Of a stretch of DNA of 64,000 bases, positions 14,480-28,221 are shown piece after piece (position 1 is the stretch's first letter; each line of letters starts with the position of its first letter). The stretch lies in assembly GCA_036480375.1 (NCBI GenBank), contig JAZGGI010000026.1, positions 1 through 64,000 of the forward strand, written 5' to 3'. This DNA comes from Candidatus Zixiibacteriota bacterium (GTDB lineage: Bacteria > Zixibacteria > MSB-5A5 > GN15 > JAAZOE01). The notes under the pieces are model-generated. The model worked only from the letters and a program-made list of their open reading frames with translations. It did not search any database and was not told where the DNA came from. Made by a program: the position numbers and the translations under genes.

Positions 14480-14520
14480 TATACTGAATGCAGGCAGGAA
14501 TTAAAGGCGGAGTTTTTTTG

Positions 14521-15036
14521 GTGAACAGCAAAACGACATCAATAGCCGAACGATTTGAAGAAGCCTTTATGGCTCACAAGGATAATATGTACGATTTTGC
14601 CATAAAATTGATGAATGACCAGGCCGAGACGGAAGATATTGTTCACGAAGCCTTTATCAGATTATATGACCAGTTCCATAAACGAGCCGAAATTCATGAT
14701 ATCAAAAACTGGCTGTTTATCGTGACGCGGAATTTATGTTATACCCGCCTCAAACGAATCCGGAAGCAGGCCGACTATTCTGAACAGATTATCGAAAACA
14801 GATACGAGGAAAATCCATCTGCGGAATTAACTTATTTTGTCGAAAGAGCCCTGGGGCAACTGGATGATAAATACCGCGAAGTCTTGATATTGCGAACATA
14901 TTTCGGCTATTCCTATGAAGAAATTGCCAGAATTTTACATAAATCGATTCCGGCCGTAAAATCGCTTTTATTCAAAGCCCGGAAAAAGCTGCAAAAGCAG
15001 GCTAAGAAATCAGAAAGATCAGAAAAAATGAGGTAA
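14521..15036 (+). CDS. ECF-type RNA polymerase sigma factor
   Basis: I prefer the GTG at 14521, which sits 8 nt after GGCGGAG; an ATG at 14488 has no ribosome site. The 171-residue product has sigma region 2 (about 25-85; DQAETEDIVHEAFIRLY and IKNWLFIVTRNL) and region 4 (about 115-165; LDDKYREVLILRTYFGYSYEEIA and the recognition helix with IPAVKSLLFKARKKL), joined by a short linker, as in ECF factors. The next gene, 5 bp away, encodes a zinc-finger anti-sigma factor, and a sigma-E-like promoter lies in front. This is a classic envelope- or stress-response unit. Confidence 0.93.
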   Translation: MNSKTTSIAERFEEAFMAHKDNMYDFAIKLMNDQAETEDIVHEAFIRLYDQFHKRAEIHDIKNWLFIVTRNLCYTRLKRIRKQADYSEQIIENRYEENPSAELTYFVERALGQLDDKYREVLILRTYFGYSYEEIARILHKSIPAVKSLLFKARKKLQKQAKKSERSEKMR

Positions 15037-15041
15037 TAGAT

Positions 15042-15509
15042 ATGCGGTGCGAAGATTATCAAAAATTGATTTCCCTCAAAATGGATAATCAATTAACGGA
15101 CGGGGAGAAAAAACGGTTAGACGAGCATCTCGAAACTTGCCGGGAATGCAGTGAGTTTGCCTCTTCTGCTTTGCAATTCGACAAAGCAATTAGCCAAATG
15201 CCTAAGGCATCTATGCCGGAAGAGCTGGAAAATCGTATCCATAAATCTATCTCAGAAAGGCCGGCTCAAAATGAAGACCGGGTAAGAAGTCTATTAAAAG
15301 GACATTTTCGCATTCCTCGCACCTTTGTTTGGGTTACCGCTGTCGTCTTTATTCTCCTTATTCACAAAGCCTTTTTCACTTCTCCCCCTACTGATATTGA
15401 AATGAGGGATTCAGGGACAACATCCCGAACGCCAAAAGTTCATACTATCGTATTATCTCAAGCCGATATCGTCCATCGCCAGACCATATCGGACCAGACT
15501 ACTAATTAA
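15042..15509 (+). CDS. Anti-sigma factor with zf-HC2 (ZAS) domain
   Basis: The 155-residue product begins MRCEDYQKLISLKMDNQLT and has HLETCREC (about residues 29-36), the HxxxCxxC motif of zinc-containing anti-sigma factors. Residues 87-107 (FVWVTAVVFILLIHKAFF) form one membrane helix, leaving about 45 residues in the periplasm. Proteins of this type hold the sigma factor at the inner membrane until released. It is translationally linked to the sigma gene (gap 5 bp) and followed 12 bp later by a secreted protein, so the three genes form one operon. Confidence 0.9.
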   Translation: MRCEDYQKLISLKMDNQLTDGEKKRLDEHLETCRECSEFASSALQFDKAISQMPKASMPEELENRIHKSISERPAQNEDRVRSLLKGHFRIPRTFVWVTAVVFILLIHKAFFTSPPTDIEMRDSGTTSRTPKVHTIVLSQADIVHRQTISDQTTN

Positions 15510-18389: not shown

Positions 18390-19139
18390 TTGAAAATATC
18401 AAACAATTTGCATGATGCTTACGGGCAGGAAATTTATGATTACTTCAAAGGTAACAAAACCACTTATGAAATTGTCGAGCGTGAAGACGGATATATAGAC
18501 ATTAGCGTCGGCCCGTCTTATTATTTCGCAGAATATAAAAAGTGGCCCCCGTCCGAAAGAAAAGCGATTCGATTCGCCCGTGGCAAAGTCCTCGACATCG
18601 GCTGCGGAGCCGGGCGGGTGATGCTGTATCTCAAAGATAAAGGATGCGATGTTTATGGCATCGACAATTCTCCCCTGGCCGTAAAAGTATGCAAGGCGCG
18701 GGGCTTGAAAAAGATATCGGTAATGGCTTTCAATAAACTAACGGCAAAGTTCGGTACTTTCGATACGATAACTATGTTCGGGAATAATTTCGGACTTTTC
18801 GGAAGTTATAATTGCGCCAAACGGCGGCTCAAATTACTGTATCGCATGACCACCGAAAAAGGCCGCATCATCGCTACAACCTGCGATCCTTATGGAACGA
18901 AACTGCCGTATCATCTGGCTTATCATAAATACAATCGCCAACGCGGACGCATGTCCGGTCAGATAAAACTGCGCGTTCGATATCTTAATTATAGGACGCC
19001 CTGGTTTGACTATCTGCTGGTTTCACCCAAAGAGCTCAAAGATATTCTGAAAGATACCGGTTGGCATATCAAAAAGCTCCTTGATCCGATACCGCCCATT
19101 TACACCATGTGTATTGGAAAAAGATTAAAAATTTTATAA
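18390..19139 (+). CDS. Class I SAM-dependent methyltransferase
   Basis: The start is a TTG at 18390, 12 bp after the previous stop and preceded by TAGGAAAA. The 249-residue product contains the SAM-binding motif I LDIGCGAGRVMLYL (about 68-81), the acidic loop YGIDNSP (about 90-96) and TMFGNNFGLFG as motif II. The C-terminal half carries basic and aromatic residues that probably bind the substrate, which is not identifiable. Downstream sequence is non-coding until ileS. Confidence 0.88.
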   Translation: MKISNNLHDAYGQEIYDYFKGNKTTYEIVEREDGYIDISVGPSYYFAEYKKWPPSERKAIRFARGKVLDIGCGAGRVMLYLKDKGCDVYGIDNSPLAVKVCKARGLKKISVMAFNKLTAKFGTFDTITMFGNNFGLFGSYNCAKRRLKLLYRMTTEKGRIIATTCDPYGTKLPYHLAYHKYNRQRGRMSGQIKLRVRYLNYRTPWFDYLLVSPKELKDILKDTGWHIKKLLDPIPPIYTMCIGKRLKIL

Positions 19140-19570
19140 TGGGCCGCACCCGCTCGGTTGTAAAACCTGTGCCCAAAAAGCCGGCTCAAATGATCCGAAA
19201 ATCATATTGACCGCGCATCCCCCTCTTTGGGGCTTCTTCAGCGTCGGTACTGTCGCTTTCTGGTATTTACTAACCTAATCTGGCCTTCCCTGGCACAATT
19301 TTCTTACCAGTTTAGCCGGAGCGGGCATTGGCCCAATAAATTAAGATATTTTCCTTGCAGGCGTGCCCCCGGCGAATATTTATTATACGTTCCAGTCCCA
19401 ATTATGTTTAATATATTTTAATTCAAACCAAAATCAACCAAATTTGCCCGAAAAAATTATTTTTCTACCGATAAAGAAATCATTATTGGTAGACTATGCC
19501 CTCCAAAAAATACTTTACTTCAAATGCCAATTTGGATAAATTATAAGGCTAAAATAAAAAGGCCAGGATT
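19140..19570. other. Leader region before ileS, no gene seen
   Basis: No frame with support. I looked for a T-box leader (common ahead of aminoacyl-tRNA synthetase genes in Firmicutes) and saw neither its conserved core nor a terminator hairpin. The last 150 bp are AT-rich and probably contain the ileS promoter. Confidence 0.5.
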
Positions 19571-22500
19571 ATGAAATTTGATCAGCTAAAAGACAACTTC
19601 TCATGGGCTGGAATCGAGGACGAAATTCTTGGGTTCTGGGAGAAAAACAACATATTCTCCCGGTCGATGGAGCAAAACAAAGACAATGAGCCTTATGTAT
19701 TCTTTGAAGGTCCTCCAACGGCTAACGGCGAGCCGGGCATCCACCATGTCATTAGCCGAACGATAAAAGACCTGATATGCCGATATAAAACCATGCAAGG
19801 TTTTCGCGTCGACAGAAAAGCCGGATGGGATACGCACGGATTGCCGGTTGAGGTGGAAGTTGAAAAGAGACTTAACCTGAAGACCAAACAGGAAGTTAAA
19901 CAATACGGAATCGCAGAATTCAACAAACGCTGTAAAGAATCGGTTTTCACCTACAAAAAAGACTGGGACGAGCTAACGCGCCGCCTCGGTTACTGGTTGG
20001 ACCTTGATAAAGCTTACATCACTCTTGAAAATTATTATATCGAATCGGTCTGGTATATTCTGGCCAACTTTTTCAATCGCGATCTAATTTACCTGGGCTA
20101 TAAAACCGTCCCTTTTTGTCCGCGCTGCGAAACGGTGTTGTCATCGCATGAAGTCGGACAGGATTATAGAGATGTCAGCGATCCTTCGGTCTTCGTCCGA
20201 ATGAAAGCCGTGGACGACGATTATTCATTCCTGGTCTGGACGACAACCCCATGGACACTGCCGTCCAACGCCGCCATCTGCCTTCATCCCAACCAAAATT
20301 ATGTCTGCGTCAAATACAAAGACGAGCGGTTGGTTTTAGCTGAAGCCTTAGCAAACCGGGTTCTGGGAGATGATTTTGAAGTATTGGAAACGAAAAAAGG
20401 TTCGGAATATGTAAATATAAAATACCAGCCGCTATTTGACACTTTTGCCGATGAGGCCGATAAGGCTTTTTATGCCATCAATGCCGATTTTGTCAGCATG
20501 AAAGACGGCACCGGTATTGTCCATATTGCTCCCGGTTTTGGAGCCGATGACTATGAGATAGGCAAAAAATACGGGCTCCCGGTTCTGCAGGCAATCTACG
20601 AAAACGGCTATTTTAAGGAAGATACCGGATGGCTGGCCGGGAAATTTATCAAAGACGCCGATCCTGAAATTATCGCCGACCTCGACAAACGGGGACTTCT
20701 GTTCATGGCCGAAAAGTACACTCACAGCTACCCCTTTTGCTGGCGATGTCATTCACCTCTGATCTATATCGCCCGGGATTCATGGTATATCCGGACGACT
20801 CAGTTTAAAGACAAACTTCTGGAATACAATAAACGAATTAATTGGTATCCGCCCGAAATCGGCTCCGGCCGCTTCGGAGAATGGCTGGAAAATAATATTG
20901 ATTGGGCTATATCTCGTGAGCGATTCTGGGGTACGCCTCTTCCGATCTGGATATGCGATAAATGCGGCGAAAAGCGAGCTGTCGGTTCCGTCGAGCAATT
21001 AAAGAATGAGGGCATCGGCGTTCCTGATAATCTTGATCTGCACAAGCCTTACATTGATGAGATCAAACTGACCTGCTCCGCTTGTTCCGGTGAAATGACT
21101 CGCGTCTCCGAGGTTATTGACGTCTGGTTTGATTCCGGGGCGATGCCATTCGCGCAATGGCATTATCCGTTTGAGAATAAGGATCGCTTCGACAAAGAAC
21201 TTTTCCCAGCGGCATTCATTTCTGAAGCCGTCGATCAGACCCGGGGATGGTTTTATTCGCTTTTGGCCATCTCAACTATTTTTTACGATAAATCTTGTTT
21301 CGAAAATTGCCTGGTTATGGAATTTGTCGTTGACCAGGAGGGCAAAAAAATGTCGAAGCATATCGGCAACTATATTGAACCGTTTGATATGTTCAATACT
21401 TACGGCGCCGATGCAGTCCGCTGGTATATGATCTCAATCTCACATCCCTGGATCGCTCTCAAATTCGATCCCGAGGGTGTGAAGATTACACAACGAAAAT
21501 TTTTCGATACGCTGAAAAACAGTTACGCCTTTTGGGCCCTGTACGCCAACATAGATGATATTGCCGAAAGGGCCGATAAAGAAAATTTATCTATCAGCGA
21601 TTTCTTGCGCAAACGCGCCGGACGGGAAACGCTGATAGACAAATGGATTCGGTCACGATACAATTCGGTCGTCAAATCGGTATCCGAGGTTCTCGATGAT
21701 TATAACATCACTCGGGCAGCGAGATTGATTCAAGATTTTGTGATTGATGACATGTCTAACTGGTATATTCGCCTCAATCGCTCTCGCTTCTACAGTTCCG
21801 GTAACGATCCCGATAAAATGCTGGTTTATTCCATTCTCTATGACATCCTCGTCGGAGTTTGCGGACTGATGGCTCCGATTGCTCCCTTTTTCTGCGACTT
21901 TATTTACGGTCAACTGGTGGGAGAATCGCGACGAGCCAAAGGTGAATCGATTCATTTGACCTCGTATCCAAATTATAATGTCGAGGCTATTGATACTGGG
22001 TTGGAAGAGGAAATGGCATATGTACAAAAAGTCGTTTCTCTGGCTTTGTCGGCACGCAAACGCAAGAATCTCAAAGTCCGGCAACCGCTGTCGAGGATAA
22101 TCATAAACAACCAAAACGGCGATAAGCCTTCGGATAATATAAATGAAATTATTCTGCGGGAATTGAATATCAAGACGATTGAATATTCGGATAATCCGGC
22201 AGAATATGTATCATACTCGGCAAAACCGGTCTTTGCCAAACTGGGACCCAAGTTCGGAAAAGCCGTAAAACAGGCGGCTGAAAAAATATCTTCCCTGCCT
22301 TCTGATGAAATTAAAGATTTTGCGCGGACACAAAGTTTGAAACTGGAATTTGACGGCCGCCAGGTAGAGCTAACCACTGAAGAGGTTGAAATTATCCGCA
22401 ACGAGCGGGAAGGTTTTGCCGTAGAATCCGACGGACCTTATACGGTCGTGTTGGATACCAGCCTCAATGAAGAACTCCGGCAGGAAGGGTTCGCGCGCGA

Positions 22501-22765
22501 ACTGGTCAACAAGATTCAGAATAAACGAAAATCTTCCGGTTTCGAAGTTACCGACCGGATTCGAATAACGTTGTTTGCCGATGAACCGGTGGCGGCGGCG
22601 ATAAAGAACTTTGGCGATTATATCAGCGCCGAAACTCTGGCTGAGCCGTTTACGGCGAATCCGATTGAGGGAAATAAAGAGGCCGGAGCACAATTTGCAT
22701 TGGGCACAATTGAAGAGTTGAAAATCAACGGTGAAATTACGTATATTGCAATAGGACGTATTTAA
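19571..22765 (+). CDS. ileS: Isoleucine-tRNA ligase, type 2, with swapped GXHH signature
   Basis: The enzyme charges tRNA-Ile in the cytoplasm. At 1064 residues without a C-terminal zinc-finger extension it fits the eukaryote-like type 2 class (IleRS2). The Rossmann core has PPTANGEPGIHHVISR: the expected HXGH reads G56-I57-H58-H59, so the first and third positions are exchanged. The second signature is KMSKH (593-597), not KMSKS. WDTHGLPVE is intact. The CP1 editing domain is present (TTPWTLPSN about 227-235; GTGIVHIAPGFGADDYE), so proofreading should work. A GXHH motif in IleRS2 has been linked to extreme mupirocin resistance. The frame is open and well conserved to the end, so it is no pseudogene. 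A DksA-like gene follows 16 bp later, then lspA. Confidence 0.97.
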   Translation: MKFDQLKDNFSWAGIEDEILGFWEKNNIFSRSMEQNKDNEPYVFFEGPPTANGEPGIHHVISRTIKDLICRYKTMQGFRVDRKAGWDTHGLPVEVEVEKRLNLKTKQEVKQYGIAEFNKRCKESVFTYKKDWDELTRRLGYWLDLDKAYITLENYYIESVWYILANFFNRDLIYLGYKTVPFCPRCETVLSSHEVGQDYRDVSDPSVFVRMKAVDDDYSFLVWTTTPWTLPSNAAICLHPNQNYVCVKYKDERLVLAEALANRVLGDDFEVLETKKGSEYVNIKYQPLFDTFADEADKAFYAINADFVSMKDGTGIVHIAPGFGADDYEIGKKYGLPVLQAIYENGYFKEDTGWLAGKFIKDADPEIIADLDKRGLLFMAEKYTHSYPFCWRCHSPLIYIARDSWYIRTTQFKDKLLEYNKRINWYPPEIGSGRFGEWLENNIDWAISRERFWGTPLPIWICDKCGEKRAVGSVEQLKNEGIGVPDNLDLHKPYIDEIKLTCSACSGEMTRVSEVIDVWFDSGAMPFAQWHYPFENKDRFDKELFPAAFISEAVDQTRGWFYSLLAISTIFYDKSCFENCLVMEFVVDQEGKKMSKHIGNYIEPFDMFNTYGADAVRWYMISISHPWIALKFDPEGVKITQRKFFDTLKNSYAFWALYANIDDIAERADKENLSISDFLRKRAGRETLIDKWIRSRYNSVVKSVSEVLDDYNITRAARLIQDFVIDDMSNWYIRLNRSRFYSSGNDPDKMLVYSILYDILVGVCGLMAPIAPFFCDFIYGQLVGESRRAKGESIHLTSYPNYNVEAIDTGLEEEMAYVQKVVSLALSARKRKNLKVRQPLSRIIINNQNGDKPSDNINEIILRELNIKTIEYSDNPAEYVSYSAKPVFAKLGPKFGKAVKQAAEKISSLPSDEIKDFARTQSLKLEFDGRQVELTTEEVEIIRNEREGFAVESDGPYTVVLDTSLNEELRQEGFARELVNKIQNKRKSSGFEVTDRIRITLFADEPVAAAIKNFGDYISAETLAEPFTANPIEGNKEAGAQFALGTIEELKINGEITYIAIGRI

Positions 22766-22781
22766 AACCCGGGGGTGCGCT

Positions 22782-23165
22782 TTGAAAAAAGCGGACATGA
22801 AGAAATACGAAAAGCTCATTTTGGCCAAGCGCGAGACGTTGATGGAAAACATCCAGGGTCTGCGCAAAGACTCGACGGCGACGATCAAGGAATCAACGGG
22901 CGATCTGTCGTCGTATTCGTATCACATGGCCGATTTGGGCACCGACGCGCAGGAGCGGGAAAAAAAGTTTCTACTGGCATCGAAATCAGGCCGGTTGATT
23001 TATCATCTCGATGAAGCTTTGCGCCGCATCGAAGACGGCACTTATGGCAAATGCCACGAATGCGGCAAAAATATAACCAAACCTCGGCTGGAAGCTGTCC
23101 CACACGCGCGTTTCTGTATTGCATGTAAAGAAGCGGAAGAGAAAAAGAAAGTTCGACGCAAGTGA
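22782..23165 (+). CDS. DksA/TraR-family zinc-finger protein
   Basis: The start is a TTG at 22782 preceded by GGGGGTG. The 127-residue product has an N-terminal coiled coil (1-80), the tip segment YHMADLGTDAQERE (47-60), and a four-Cys zinc finger: C91, C94, C112, C115. DksA-like proteins insert the coiled coil into the RNA polymerase secondary channel and tune transcription, often with ppGpp. The tip sequence is of the shorter TraR/YteA-like type, so I do not call it DksA proper. It lies between ileS and lspA, overlapping the latter's start by 4 bp, which indicates a single operon. Confidence 0.92.
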   Translation: MKKADMKKYEKLILAKRETLMENIQGLRKDSTATIKESTGDLSSYSYHMADLGTDAQEREKKFLLASKSGRLIYHLDEALRRIEDGTYGKCHECGKNITKPRLEAVPHARFCIACKEAEEKKKVRRK

Positions 23166-23698
23166 TCGACAAAACCTCTTTCAAGCTTATAATCCTCTTC
23201 ATCGCGGTCCTGGTTTTAGACCAGGCGACCAAGTATATCGCTTTATCTTCACTCACCCTGGGTCAACCCGTACCGGTTCTGGGAGATTATCTCCGCTGGA
23301 CATTAGCCTATAATCCGGGCGGGGCTTTCGGCATGAGACTGGGCGGCCCCAATTATTATCTCATCACATCATTGATCGTGTTCGTTATCCTTTTATTTTA
23401 TGTCATCAAAAATCGCAAAGTGAGTTTCATCTCGATTCCCCTGGCGATAGTCTCGGGAGGCGCCGCCGGAAATATCATCGACCGTTTTCGTTTCGGTGAG
23501 GTAGTCGATTTTATAGACTGCGAATTCCCTGATATTTCCATCGCCTCCTATCACCTTGATCGCTGGCCGATCTTCAATATCGCCGACATGGCCGTATCAT
23601 GCGGTATTATCGTTACGATAATTCTTATGATGTACCATTCGAAAAAAGCGCCGGCTCAATCGGAAGACAATAGCCTCTCCACCCCCGAGACTATGTAA
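23162..23698 (+). CDS. lspA: Lipoprotein signal peptidase II
   Basis: The GTG start overlaps the stop of the DksA-like gene. The 178-residue inner-membrane aspartyl protease cleaves signal peptides of lipidated prolipoproteins. Four membrane helices are visible. Conserved blocks: NPGGAFGM (51-58), GGAAGNIIDR (99-108), VVDFID with catalytic Asp116, and FNIAD with catalytic Asp142. Several lipoprotein precursors in this window (10848, 38085, 39437, 59466) are predicted substrates. The last 15 residues (polar, PAQSEDN) are a dispensable tail. Confidence 0.97.
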   Translation: MIDKTSFKLIILFIAVLVLDQATKYIALSSLTLGQPVPVLGDYLRWTLAYNPGGAFGMRLGGPNYYLITSLIVFVILLFYVIKNRKVSFISIPLAIVSGGAAGNIIDRFRFGEVVDFIDCEFPDISIASYHLDRWPIFNIADMAVSCGIIVTIILMMYHSKKAPAQSEDNSLSTPETM

Positions 23699-23773
23699 CC
23701 TCGTATAATATTTTTTATCTATTGTCCACGCCACAGAGCAAATTATTTTTTTATTTCATCTCGGAGAGCGAAG

Positions 23774-23924
23774 GGGCTTGTTGAAAAAGTCTTGAAATGA
23801 TCTTCAGCCTAAGGAATGGGAAAACATTTCGAATCGTAAGTTCTTGATACACAGCAGATCACAATTTTGTTTTCACGAAATCAAGACCCACCTCAACTCT
23901 TGGCAGTGGTTTTTCAACACGCCC
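23774..23924 (+). mobile_element. MITE copy A: 151 bp with 15-bp terminal inverted repeats
   Basis: The element begins GGGCTTGTTGAAAAA and ends TTTTTCAACACGCCC, which are inverted repeats with one mismatch. It is flanked by GAAG on both sides (23770-23773 and 23925-23928), a 4-bp target duplication. It has no coding capacity. A second copy of exactly 151 bp lies inverted at 51910-52060, about 95% identical. Confidence 0.85.
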
Positions 23925-24747: not shown

Positions 24748-27408
24748 CTACTCACACCCCGCACACGGCCCCGGGCCGCCTTTGAAGACGTGGTTTATCA
24801 TGTACACAGCATCGCCGACATTGCATTGACCATCGCAGTTGGAATCGCATGCATCAATCGGGTCTGGTACGGGGCCGCTTTTGAAAATGTGGTTGATGAT
24901 GAAGACGGCGTCCCCGACATTTGTTTCGGTGTCTCCATTGGCGTCGCCGCAGAAATAGGGCGCAAGAATATAAAAGGTTGCCACCTGGCTCCAACCACCG
25001 TACTCGAATCCATCATACGCCAGGGCGCGCCAGAAATAGTCGTTCTCATTCGGTATAGTATCGGGTAGTTCCCAGGTCGTCATTCCGTCGTCGCCCTCCG
25101 GAATACCTGAAGCCTGTACTATCAATTCAGTTAGCAGTTCGTCGTCGTAGACTTCATATGAATATGTCAGGCTATCGCCTTCGTTATCCTGAGAATTGGC
25201 GTGTGACAGGGTAGGCGGATTGTCCTCCAGTTCCTGCATATTATCCGGATCGAGGTTGGTCGGCGATGCAGGTATCGAATTCATCCTGAACTCACTATAG
25301 TACCAGTATGACCAAGTTATCCCATTCGATACTCTCACCCGGTAATAATATGTTGAGCCGTCGCTCAGCGCGGTGCCCGCATAGACTAAACTCGTTTCCG
25401 ATCCTGATATCGGACCGGAATCCCACATTTCCGGCATTGACCAGTCATCATCATTGCTGACCTGGACATGATATTCCTGCTGAACGAATTCTGCATCGGA
25501 ATGACTCCACGATAATTCCGGGGTGTGCTCTGTCATATGTATGGGATCACCCGGCGCGACAGCCAATGATATCGTACTCTGTGGCCGCTGATACGCGAAG
25601 AAATCGAGAATTTTGTCCATAATAATACCCCGCCCCGTCCAACGACTGTCACCGTTGATTATAGCTTCGAAACCAAATCCGAAAAAAATCACCTTATACG
25701 TCCCAAGGTACGATACGGCGCCCGGATTGTCTGCCACAAGATACCGATACTCGTCTACGCCACCATTGATCGCTGCCAGATGATCTGGAGCAACCTGGTT
25801 GGCTGCGCCGCCGGAACCCTGGATATAGATGGAGTCGGAAATATCAAAAACCTGACCTCCTGCAGATGCCAGGATCGGAACAAAGCTTGTTGCGACATAA
25901 CCGGCGTGTAGGTAATCATGCAAAAAAGACTGATCATCCGTGTCAAGCTGCGCGGCAATCCCCTGCCCCGTGAGGAAAAGCTGCCCGCCGGCATCGAGAA
26001 AGCCCTTCATCGCGCTGACTTCATCGTTATCCAGAGGACTGGTTTGGTAATCACCGACGAACCAGATCACAATGTCATAACCGTTCAGATCCTCTGATGA
26101 GGGAGAAGGTGGCGATGACCATATATCATAGGGTATATGGGCTGCCTGAAGACAGGAAATATAGTACCCATCGACACCGCTTCCGCCGTCATCATTTACC
26201 AATAATATCGAGGCAGCTCCGATATTTTTTGCGCCCGCCAAGGTATTAGTTACCGTGCCGGTGTCGCACTGCCAGATAGTTTCGAAATATAATGAATCGA
26301 AACGGGGGATATAATCATTGGGAATTTCAATTATAAAGGGATCGCCTTCATTATCCACTGTATGCCCCTCCAGAACATCACCGATAACTGTCGAGCCATC
26401 GATAATCCGCAAGGCGGCATCATTAGAGAACAGGTTTACTGAAAGATCGACTATTGTATCAACACCCCGATTTGATATTTGGCAAACCAATTCGACCGTT
26501 TCGCCGCCTTCCGGAATGCCATCACCGTCTCCATAGAGATCATCGGAAAATGTGTATCCGTTGAGATGCGTGTAGCCATAAATCGGCAGATAAATGACAT
26601 CATGGTCCCAGTAGATAACAGCAGCCAAAATATTGTTGTGACTGGTGAAATAAATGTCAGTATGACCGTCGAGCCCAGATATTATAAGTTGCGGTCGTTG
26701 ACTGAAAGTGCTGTCGAATCGATAGATCGAATTATTATTATTCGATCCTGGACTGTTACTCGCCATCGTAGAGATATAGTAATTGCCCATATGATCCCTG
26801 GCTATACCATCAAGAGGGGGAAGGGAGGGACTAATAAGAGCTGAAACCGTGGTGTCAGACAGATTAAGAGCCTGAATCGGAAAATTATTGGTCATTGAGG
26901 CCATTATCAAACGATTTCTGAATGGGTCAAAATGAATCCCCAGAGGCGAATTGACTCCTTTGCCTGCATTGGCAAAGACTGAATAGGAATTATCACTGAG
27001 ATCGACGCGATAGATTCTGCTGTTCCTCCAGTCTGTTGCGTAGACGTAGCCCGAAGTGTCTGCAGCCAAACCGTGGCATCCCCCGGCACCTGCGAAATTC
27101 ACGCTCATGAGAGTTGCTCCTGTTGCCAGATCAAGGCCAATCACACCATTGTTGTTCACGGCTACGTAGACAACATCTCCGTCGATAATTATACTGGCGC
27201 AATTGCCCAACCCCGTTTTAAAATAGCTTTGCTCGCCGGCGCTGTTTATTTCGACTACTGTTCCCGATCGCCAATTGGAGACCAGATAACGATTATTCAT
27301 GGAATCAAAAACGATACCTTCAGGTTCGTTAAGAAGACCAACCGAAAGGGTGGGGTTGGCGTAAAAAATTGCCATCAACACGATAATTGCCCGGTAAAAT
27401 GGTAACAT
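24748..27408 (-). CDS. Secreted beta-propeller protein with GATase-like domain and dockerin
   Basis: The ATG at 27408 follows AGGAGGAG. The 886-residue product has a signal peptide (1-23, FYRAIIVLMAIFYANPTLS), an NHL/SMP-30-like beta-propeller (25-275; repeated GIVFDSMNNRYLVSN, GLAADTSGYVYATDW, GIHFDPFRNRLIMAS), a beta-sandwich (280-395), a class I glutamine-amidotransferase-like fold (400-605; NDDGGSGVDGYY, YDIVIWFVGDYQ, GQLFLTGQGIA), fibronectin-III-like modules (610-810), and a C-terminal dockerin (820-886: CGDANGDTETNVGDAVFII and SNCDGQCNVGDAVYMI). No T9SS sorting domain. It probably binds sugars or proteins outside the cell; no enzyme activity can be assigned. Confidence 0.88.
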   Translation of the reverse strand: MLPFYRAIIVLMAIFYANPTLSVGLLNEPEGIVFDSMNNRYLVSNWRSGTVVEINSAGEQSYFKTGLGNCASIIIDGDVVYVAVNNNGVIGLDLATGATLMSVNFAGAGGCHGLAADTSGYVYATDWRNSRIYRVDLSDNSYSVFANAGKGVNSPLGIHFDPFRNRLIMASMTNNFPIQALNLSDTTVSALISPSLPPLDGIARDHMGNYYISTMASNSPGSNNNNSIYRFDSTFSQRPQLIISGLDGHTDIYFTSHNNILAAVIYWDHDVIYLPIYGYTHLNGYTFSDDLYGDGDGIPEGGETVELVCQISNRGVDTIVDLSVNLFSNDAALRIIDGSTVIGDVLEGHTVDNEGDPFIIEIPNDYIPRFDSLYFETIWQCDTGTVTNTLAGAKNIGAASILLVNDDGGSGVDGYYISCLQAAHIPYDIWSSPPSPSSEDLNGYDIVIWFVGDYQTSPLDNDEVSAMKGFLDAGGQLFLTGQGIAAQLDTDDQSFLHDYLHAGYVATSFVPILASAGGQVFDISDSIYIQGSGGAANQVAPDHLAAINGGVDEYRYLVADNPGAVSYLGTYKVIFFGFGFEAIINGDSRWTGRGIIMDKILDFFAYQRPQSTISLAVAPGDPIHMTEHTPELSWSHSDAEFVQQEYHVQVSNDDDWSMPEMWDSGPISGSETSLVYAGTALSDGSTYYYRVRVSNGITWSYWYYSEFRMNSIPASPTNLDPDNMQELEDNPPTLSHANSQDNEGDSLTYSYEVYDDELLTELIVQASGIPEGDDGMTTWELPDTIPNENDYFWRALAYDGFEYGGWSQVATFYILAPYFCGDANGDTETNVGDAVFIINHIFKSGPVPDPIDACDSNCDGQCNVGDAVYMINHVFKGGPGPCAGCE

Positions 27409-27666: not shown

Positions 27667-28221
27667 GTGACCGAACCAGACATTAATTATCTATATAACC
27701 AGGTGCGCAGGGGCGATGCGACCAAAGAAAAGCATCTTTTTCAATTGCTTTCTGATAAATTTCTATATTTCGCACTCCATAGAATATGGGATAAAGCGGA
27801 TGCTGAGGAGATCGTTCAGAATGCCTTGATGACTATTCATAAGGAATACATAAAGATTGACTTCAAGGTGAGTTTTGCCGCTTGGGCTTATAAAGTGTTG
27901 AATAATAAGATATTGGATTATATCCAGACCAAGAGACGTCGGGGATCATTAATGAGGGACGCTATAAGGGATAATCGTCTTCCACGACCTGCTCCGCTGG
28001 TGGAAAATCCGGAATTGAAACGTCGATTGCTGTTTTGTCTGGAGAAAATCGGTCGAAGAAATATCCGTTATGCCCGGATATTAAATCTGCATTATCAGGG
28101 ATTTTCTACGACTGAGATCTGCGAAAAGATTAAATTGACTAAGAGAGTTTTCTATACAAGCCTTTTTCGGGCGAGAACATTGTTAGTATCCTGCCTGAAA
28201 AACGAGGACACGGATCAATGA
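27667..28221 (+). CDS. Sigma-70 family (ECF-like) RNA polymerase sigma factor
   Basis: The start is GTG at 27667. The 184-residue product has region 2 (ADAEEIVQNALMTIHKEY, VSFAAWAYKVLNNKILDYIQ, about 42-90) and region 4 (RYARILNLHYQGFSTTEICEKIKLTKRVFYTSLFRAR, about 140-175). The linker RRRGSLMRDAIRDNRLPRP is short, as in ECF factors. Its stop overlaps the ATG of the next gene by 4 bp, so the two proteins are translationally coupled, which is usual for a sigma factor and its inhibitor. Confidence 0.9.
   Translation: MTEPDINYLYNQVRRGDATKEKHLFQLLSDKFLYFALHRIWDKADAEEIVQNALMTIHKEYIKIDFKVSFAAWAYKVLNNKILDYIQTKRRRGSLMRDAIRDNRLPRPAPLVENPELKRRLLFCLEKIGRRNIRYARILNLHYQGFSTTEICEKIKLTKRVFYTSLFRARTLLVSCLKNEDTDQ

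Follow-up and report, generated by a model that had tools for sequence, protein, structure and literature searches.

The swapped class I signature of a predicted type 2 isoleucyl-tRNA synthetase from Candidatus Zixiibacteriota and its probable immunity to mupirocin

The question raised by this locus is whether an isoleucyl-tRNA synthetase whose class I signature reads GXHH instead of HXGH serves as the ordinary housekeeping enzyme of its host while being, by the same exchange, insensitive to mupirocin. The window, i.e. the whole stretch of DNA that was analysed, comprises 64,000 nucleotides (positions 1 to 64,000 of contig JAZGGI010000026.1 of Candidatus Zixiibacteriota bacterium). The gene under study occupies an open frame at 19571-22765 of the forward strand, from an ATG to a stop codon. 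Its features, and those of the two genes that follow it, are given below.

19571..22765, + strand: ileS, encoding a predicted type 2 isoleucyl-tRNA synthetase (IleRS2) of 1064 amino acids; open frame, TIGR00392 score of 951.5 bits, best solved relative P. megaterium IleRS2.
19625..21442, + strand: catalytic and editing region, PF00133, residues 19-624 (domain search).
19718..19720, + strand: Thr50, at the place of Tyr59 of E. coli IleRS (alignment; rule from PMC4861432).
19736..19747, + strand: swapped class I signature G56-I57-H58-H59 (GXHH instead of HXGH), read from the DNA and aligned with the HVGH and the laboratory GVHH of P. megaterium IleRS2.
20549..20551, + strand: Asp327, in the editing-domain stretch GTGIVHIAPGFGADD; column invariant in a 12-row alignment.
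21347..21361, + strand: KMSKS motif, present as KMSKH, residues 593-597 (from the sequence; both motif classes vary at the fifth position).
21638..22099, + strand: anticodon-binding domain, PF08264, residues 690-843 (domain search).
22145..22666, + strand: DUF5915, C-terminal part of the IleRS2 type, residues 859-1032 (domain search); no Cys within.
22782..23165, + strand: dksA/traR-like C4 zinc-finger gene, following ileS in the operon (PF01258, TIGR02890; conserved neighbour).
23162..23698, + strand: lspA, lipoprotein signal peptidase, sharing 4 bases with the end of the dksA-like gene (TIGR00077, 91.6 bits, over the cut-off; conserved neighbour).

No T-box or other leader RNA was detected upstream of ileS, a Rfam scan of 18900-23900 giving no match at E <= 1, and the promoter and terminator scans stayed close to the level of shuffled sequence. 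Elsewhere in the window, a gene for a sigma-70-like factor is followed by a gene with a zf-HC2 zinc-finger domain typical of anti-sigma factors (14488-15509), with a second ECF-like sigma gene further on (27667-28221). On the reverse strand (24748-27408), the list of open reading frames gives a large predicted secreted protein of 886 amino acids that ends with the dockerin-type-like repeats GDANGDTETNVGDAVFIINHIFK and CNVGDAVYMINHVFK.

Several properties place the ileS product among the type 2 enzymes. Its TIGR00392 score passes the cut-off of 621.4 bits, DUF5915 forms the type 2 C-terminus, and no Cys is found after residue 850, so that the enzyme lacks the C-terminal Cys4 zinc cluster of IleRS1. 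Thr50 belongs to a PPTANG motif, and Phe or Thr at the place of E. coli Tyr59 characterizes eukaryote-like IleRS (PMC4861432). The best matches in the PDB are the entries of Priestia megaterium IleRS2 (8c8u, 8c8v, 8c8w and 8c9d; 968-981 bits), which are the closest solved structures and align over residues 16-1023; the top match, 8c8w, with 981 bits, bears a GVHH motif. The S. aureus IleRS1 reaches 362 bits. Bacterial IleRS1 (E. coli, S. aureus) share the reaction and the overall domain order with the window enzyme, but they have HXGH only, a Tyr in PPYANG and a sensitivity to mupirocin in the nM range, and their activity is abolished by GXHH (PMC10485003). By its sequence, the product of the window gene is an IleRS2, as the original prediction had proposed. 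The claim that its catalytic core and editing domain are intact also agrees with the profile score and with the presence of PF00133, PF08264 and DUF5915. In the editing domain, Asp327 is taken, by motif rather than by alignment to the S. griseus enzyme, as the counterpart of the editing residue D334 of S. griseus IleRS, in which the D334A substitution yields an editing-deficient enzyme (PMC4861432).

At the signature itself, bases 19736-19747 read GGCATCCACCAT (GGC ATC CAC CAT), i.e. Gly56-Ile57-His58-His59, in the context expected for this family (FFEGPPTANGEP-GIHH-VISRTIKD, with EGPPTANGEP preceding GIHH), and the motif is of the G/A-X-H-H kind. The same arrangement is known from natural enzymes. 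The IleRS2 of Streptomyces griseus and Deinococcus radiodurans are likewise type 2 enzymes in which positions one and three of HXGH have changed places, and the same mechanism and resistance are expected of the window enzyme by analogy. The S. griseus IleRS offers a natural precedent with a Ki of 10 mM for mupirocin (PMC4861432). The D. radiodurans IleRS2 (ALHH) has a Ki of 6.6 mM, which becomes 823-fold lower on conversion to HVGH (PMC10485003); unlike it, the window enzyme has Gly in place of Ala and comes from another lineage. Conversely, introducing GVHH into the IleRS2 of P. megaterium or T. thermophilus raises the Ki about 200-430-fold (PMC10485003). The original prediction had relied on the P. 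megaterium enzyme, and this precedent stands only in part: the exchange does confer high resistance there, but the native motif is HVGH, in an enzyme that works beside an IleRS1, and the swap is laboratory-made at a cost of up to 10-fold in kcat and KM.

The explanation preferred here, and considered highly probable, is that of a sole, vertically inherited housekeeping IleRS2 with a natural GXHH motif, which would charge tRNA-Ile normally and be inhibited only by millimolar mupirocin. It joins what is observed (sequence, family, motif, sole copy, operon and tree position) to a mechanism drawn from the published enzymes. Gly56 would replace the usual first His, His58 at the third position would take over the role of that His in the transition state, and the collision of His58 with mupirocin would produce the resistance. 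Homology predicts an active window enzyme that withstands mupirocin up to millimolar concentrations, and the swapped motif very probably makes it immune to this antibiotic. The predicted hyper-resistance is in line with both the sequence and the characterized GXHH enzymes (PMC10485003), and the window represents one more lineage in which natural immunity to mupirocin is expected. Residue 585 was counted against this explanation: it is a Phe in the window IleRS as in E. coli IleRS1, with His582 in P. megaterium IleRS2, and this position stacks on mupirocin in IleRS1. The exact level of Ki is not predictable, because IleRS2 enzymes vary widely in this respect. The literature on mupirocin with bifidobacteria, anaerobes or Bacteroides yielded nothing directly useful.

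The second motif, KMSKH, had also been pointed out as altered. The alteration is real but uninformative: among 172 aligned IleRS, GXHH is combined with KMSKS in 55 sequences and with KMSKH in 51, while HXGH occurs with KMSKS in 37 and with KMSKH in 8. KMSKH was consequently rejected as a second meaningful change. Only positions 56 and 58 separate the GXHH and HXGH classes completely. The next-best co-varying positions are 95 (Leu with HXGH), 339, 406, 452, 12 and 135, none of which can reach significance since there are four independent contrasts; in the published work, the tolerance of the swap could not be traced to single neighbouring residues (PMC10485003). A change at the third position of the second motif, KMHKS, was observed in GXHH enzymes of at least two separate groups, L080 and L082 (genomes G106 and G107, family f13) and L168 and L174 (Bacilli).

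The swapped motif was described by Brkic et al. in 2023, with G/AXHH in 86/163 bacterial IleRS2 (PMC10485003). The phenomenon is therefore already published and widespread, and the window adds another member. Its frequency was surveyed here with a DNA pattern, the motif being read and counted in the matches listed; this pattern demands GPPxANGxP as the IleRS2 context together with fixed codon families, and hence misses some enzymes. In the phylum of the window, 104 of 112 readable genomes have GXHH and 8 have HXGH, with a pattern allowing only some residues at the two sites. Among the matches listed for samples of three other phyla, that of a Chloroflexi locus gave 55 GXHH, 4 AXHH and 3 HXGH, that of a Clostridia locus 11 GXHH and 15 HXGH, and that of a Flavobacterium locus GXHH at all 85 of 85 sites. 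No half-swapped HXHH or GXGH was seen among the 285 sites read in the four surveys. In whole phyla, ileS normally carries the swapped motif, whose presence alone says nothing about recent antibiotic selection.

These counts bear on a reading that is judged rather probable, in which this IleRS2 branch has the swapped motif by default, as a matter of inheritance and not of current contact with mupirocin, the resistance being a by-product. It involves the same biochemistry as the preferred explanation and the two are not mutually exclusive; "selected resistance" would then be the wrong way to read the motif. The near-uniform GXHH of the window's phylum and of the Flavobacterium-locus sample speaks for it, as does a context that consists of a housekeeping operon only, devoid of any resistance cassette or mobile element. 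Repeated motif changes inside one clade, described further on, suggest on the contrary some selection on the motif.

The search for a second ileS, left to be done by the original prediction, found none over the ileS cut-off elsewhere in the 97%-complete genome. The remaining matches to the profile, on contigs C15 and C16, are far below the cut-off and look like ValRS and LeuRS, to judge from an inferred naming; a second ileS within the gap of the genome is possible though unlikely. Where the flanks are long enough to tell, the relatives and most Bacteroidota loci keep the order ileS-dksA-lspA, as do four Ignavibacteria loci; E. coli has ileS-lspA with the middle gene absent. Since no other ileS was found and its ileS-dksA/traR-lspA operon is conserved, the window gene is a housekeeping ileS rather than an accessory resistance copy, which is the role that had been suggested for it.

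A dedicated resistance copy beside a sensitive IleRS1, like MupA in staphylococci, is on the same evidence very unlikely. IleRS2-like genes on staphylococcal plasmids are indeed annotated in this way, with many mupA records, and MupA and MupB resemble the window protein in being IleRS2-like, with an annotation as mupirocin-resistant. They are nevertheless accessory plasmid genes, whereas the window protein is encoded in a conserved chromosomal housekeeping operon of a genome with one ileS, the number also found in 18/18 named genomes with an IleRS2 of either motif. The window protein has ~43% identity to MupA and scores 950.8 and 941.1 bits for MupA and MupB, against a curated cut-off of 1900 bits, of which 950.8 is half.

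That the gene encodes a decayed or re-purposed class I synthetase devoid of activation activity could be imagined from the departure of the signature from the class consensus. This is very improbable, given that the catalytic, editing and anticodon domains are complete, that no other ileS was found in the genome, that the motif is conserved across the lineage and that published GXHH enzymes are active (PMC10485003). A sequencing or assembly error at the motif has a negligible probability and is regarded as excluded, because GIHH or GTHH, in support of the GXHH read from the DNA, is found in 6/6 other genomes of the family and GXHH in about a hundred of the phylum. Nor is chance an issue, since a whole clade shares the exchange at two positions of a motif that is otherwise invariant. 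In one ileS of the same family (L010, G068:C444:15626-18703), an in-frame TAG separates two open frames and may be a sequencing error or a real nonsense codon.

The history of the motif was followed on two trees, both made with the motif columns left out. On a FastTree (172 sequences), 8 changes of motif state are required, and on an IQ-TREE quick tree of 47 sequences (LG+C20) 4, of which 3 fall within one eleven-member clade of the window's class; these counts do not fix the direction of switching. The window sequence groups with the rest of its family and order, in which every readable motif is GXHH. In the eleven-member clade, G007 has HIGH; family f17 combines HIGH in G120 with GIHH in G122 and G123; family f15 combines HAGH in G113 with GIHH in G112 and G114; and family f16 is HXGH in 4/4. 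The relevant forks have SH-aLRT values of 94 to 100, in a quick tree built without bootstraps. The order ileS-dksA-lspA is kept in all six HXGH members checked (G007, G113, G115, G117, G118 and G120), which excludes for them a replacement by a gene located elsewhere: the motif changed in place, through either substitution or homologous exchange.

At least two gains and one reversion of the motif overall had been published (PMC10485003); the repeated switching within one class extends this modestly. It is tentatively proposed, at a confidence slightly short of even, that the hyper-resistance motif switches at one and the same locus within short spans of evolution, with at least three changes among eleven related ileS and probably both ways, and that either the two sites change nearly at once or a half-swapped form is hardly viable. 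If true, this clade would serve as a natural experiment on the passage through a two-residue catalytic swap. Matched HXGH and GXHH enzymes for testing the tolerance of the swap are available from sister groups of the window's class (families f15, f16, f17 and f6). Related ileS of this class, L084, L092, L097, L098, L100, L076 and L089 versus L083, L086, L095 and L096, have opposite states (HXGH/GXHH) at the same operon position where checked.

Two further loci come from the window's order. L101/L106 (G052:C21:358332-361469) groups with an Oceanococcus and Bacteroidota sequences instead of those of its order and yet lies in ileS-dksA-lspA, which makes it a candidate for transfer or in-place exchange. 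L108 (G079:C1:1901792-1904299, reverse strand) encodes a very different IleRS2 with EMHKS and GXHH, at a different locus with neither dksA nor lspA adjoining; no other ileS was found in its genome, which is ~83% complete, and it is apparently a non-orthologous replacement that also carries GXHH.
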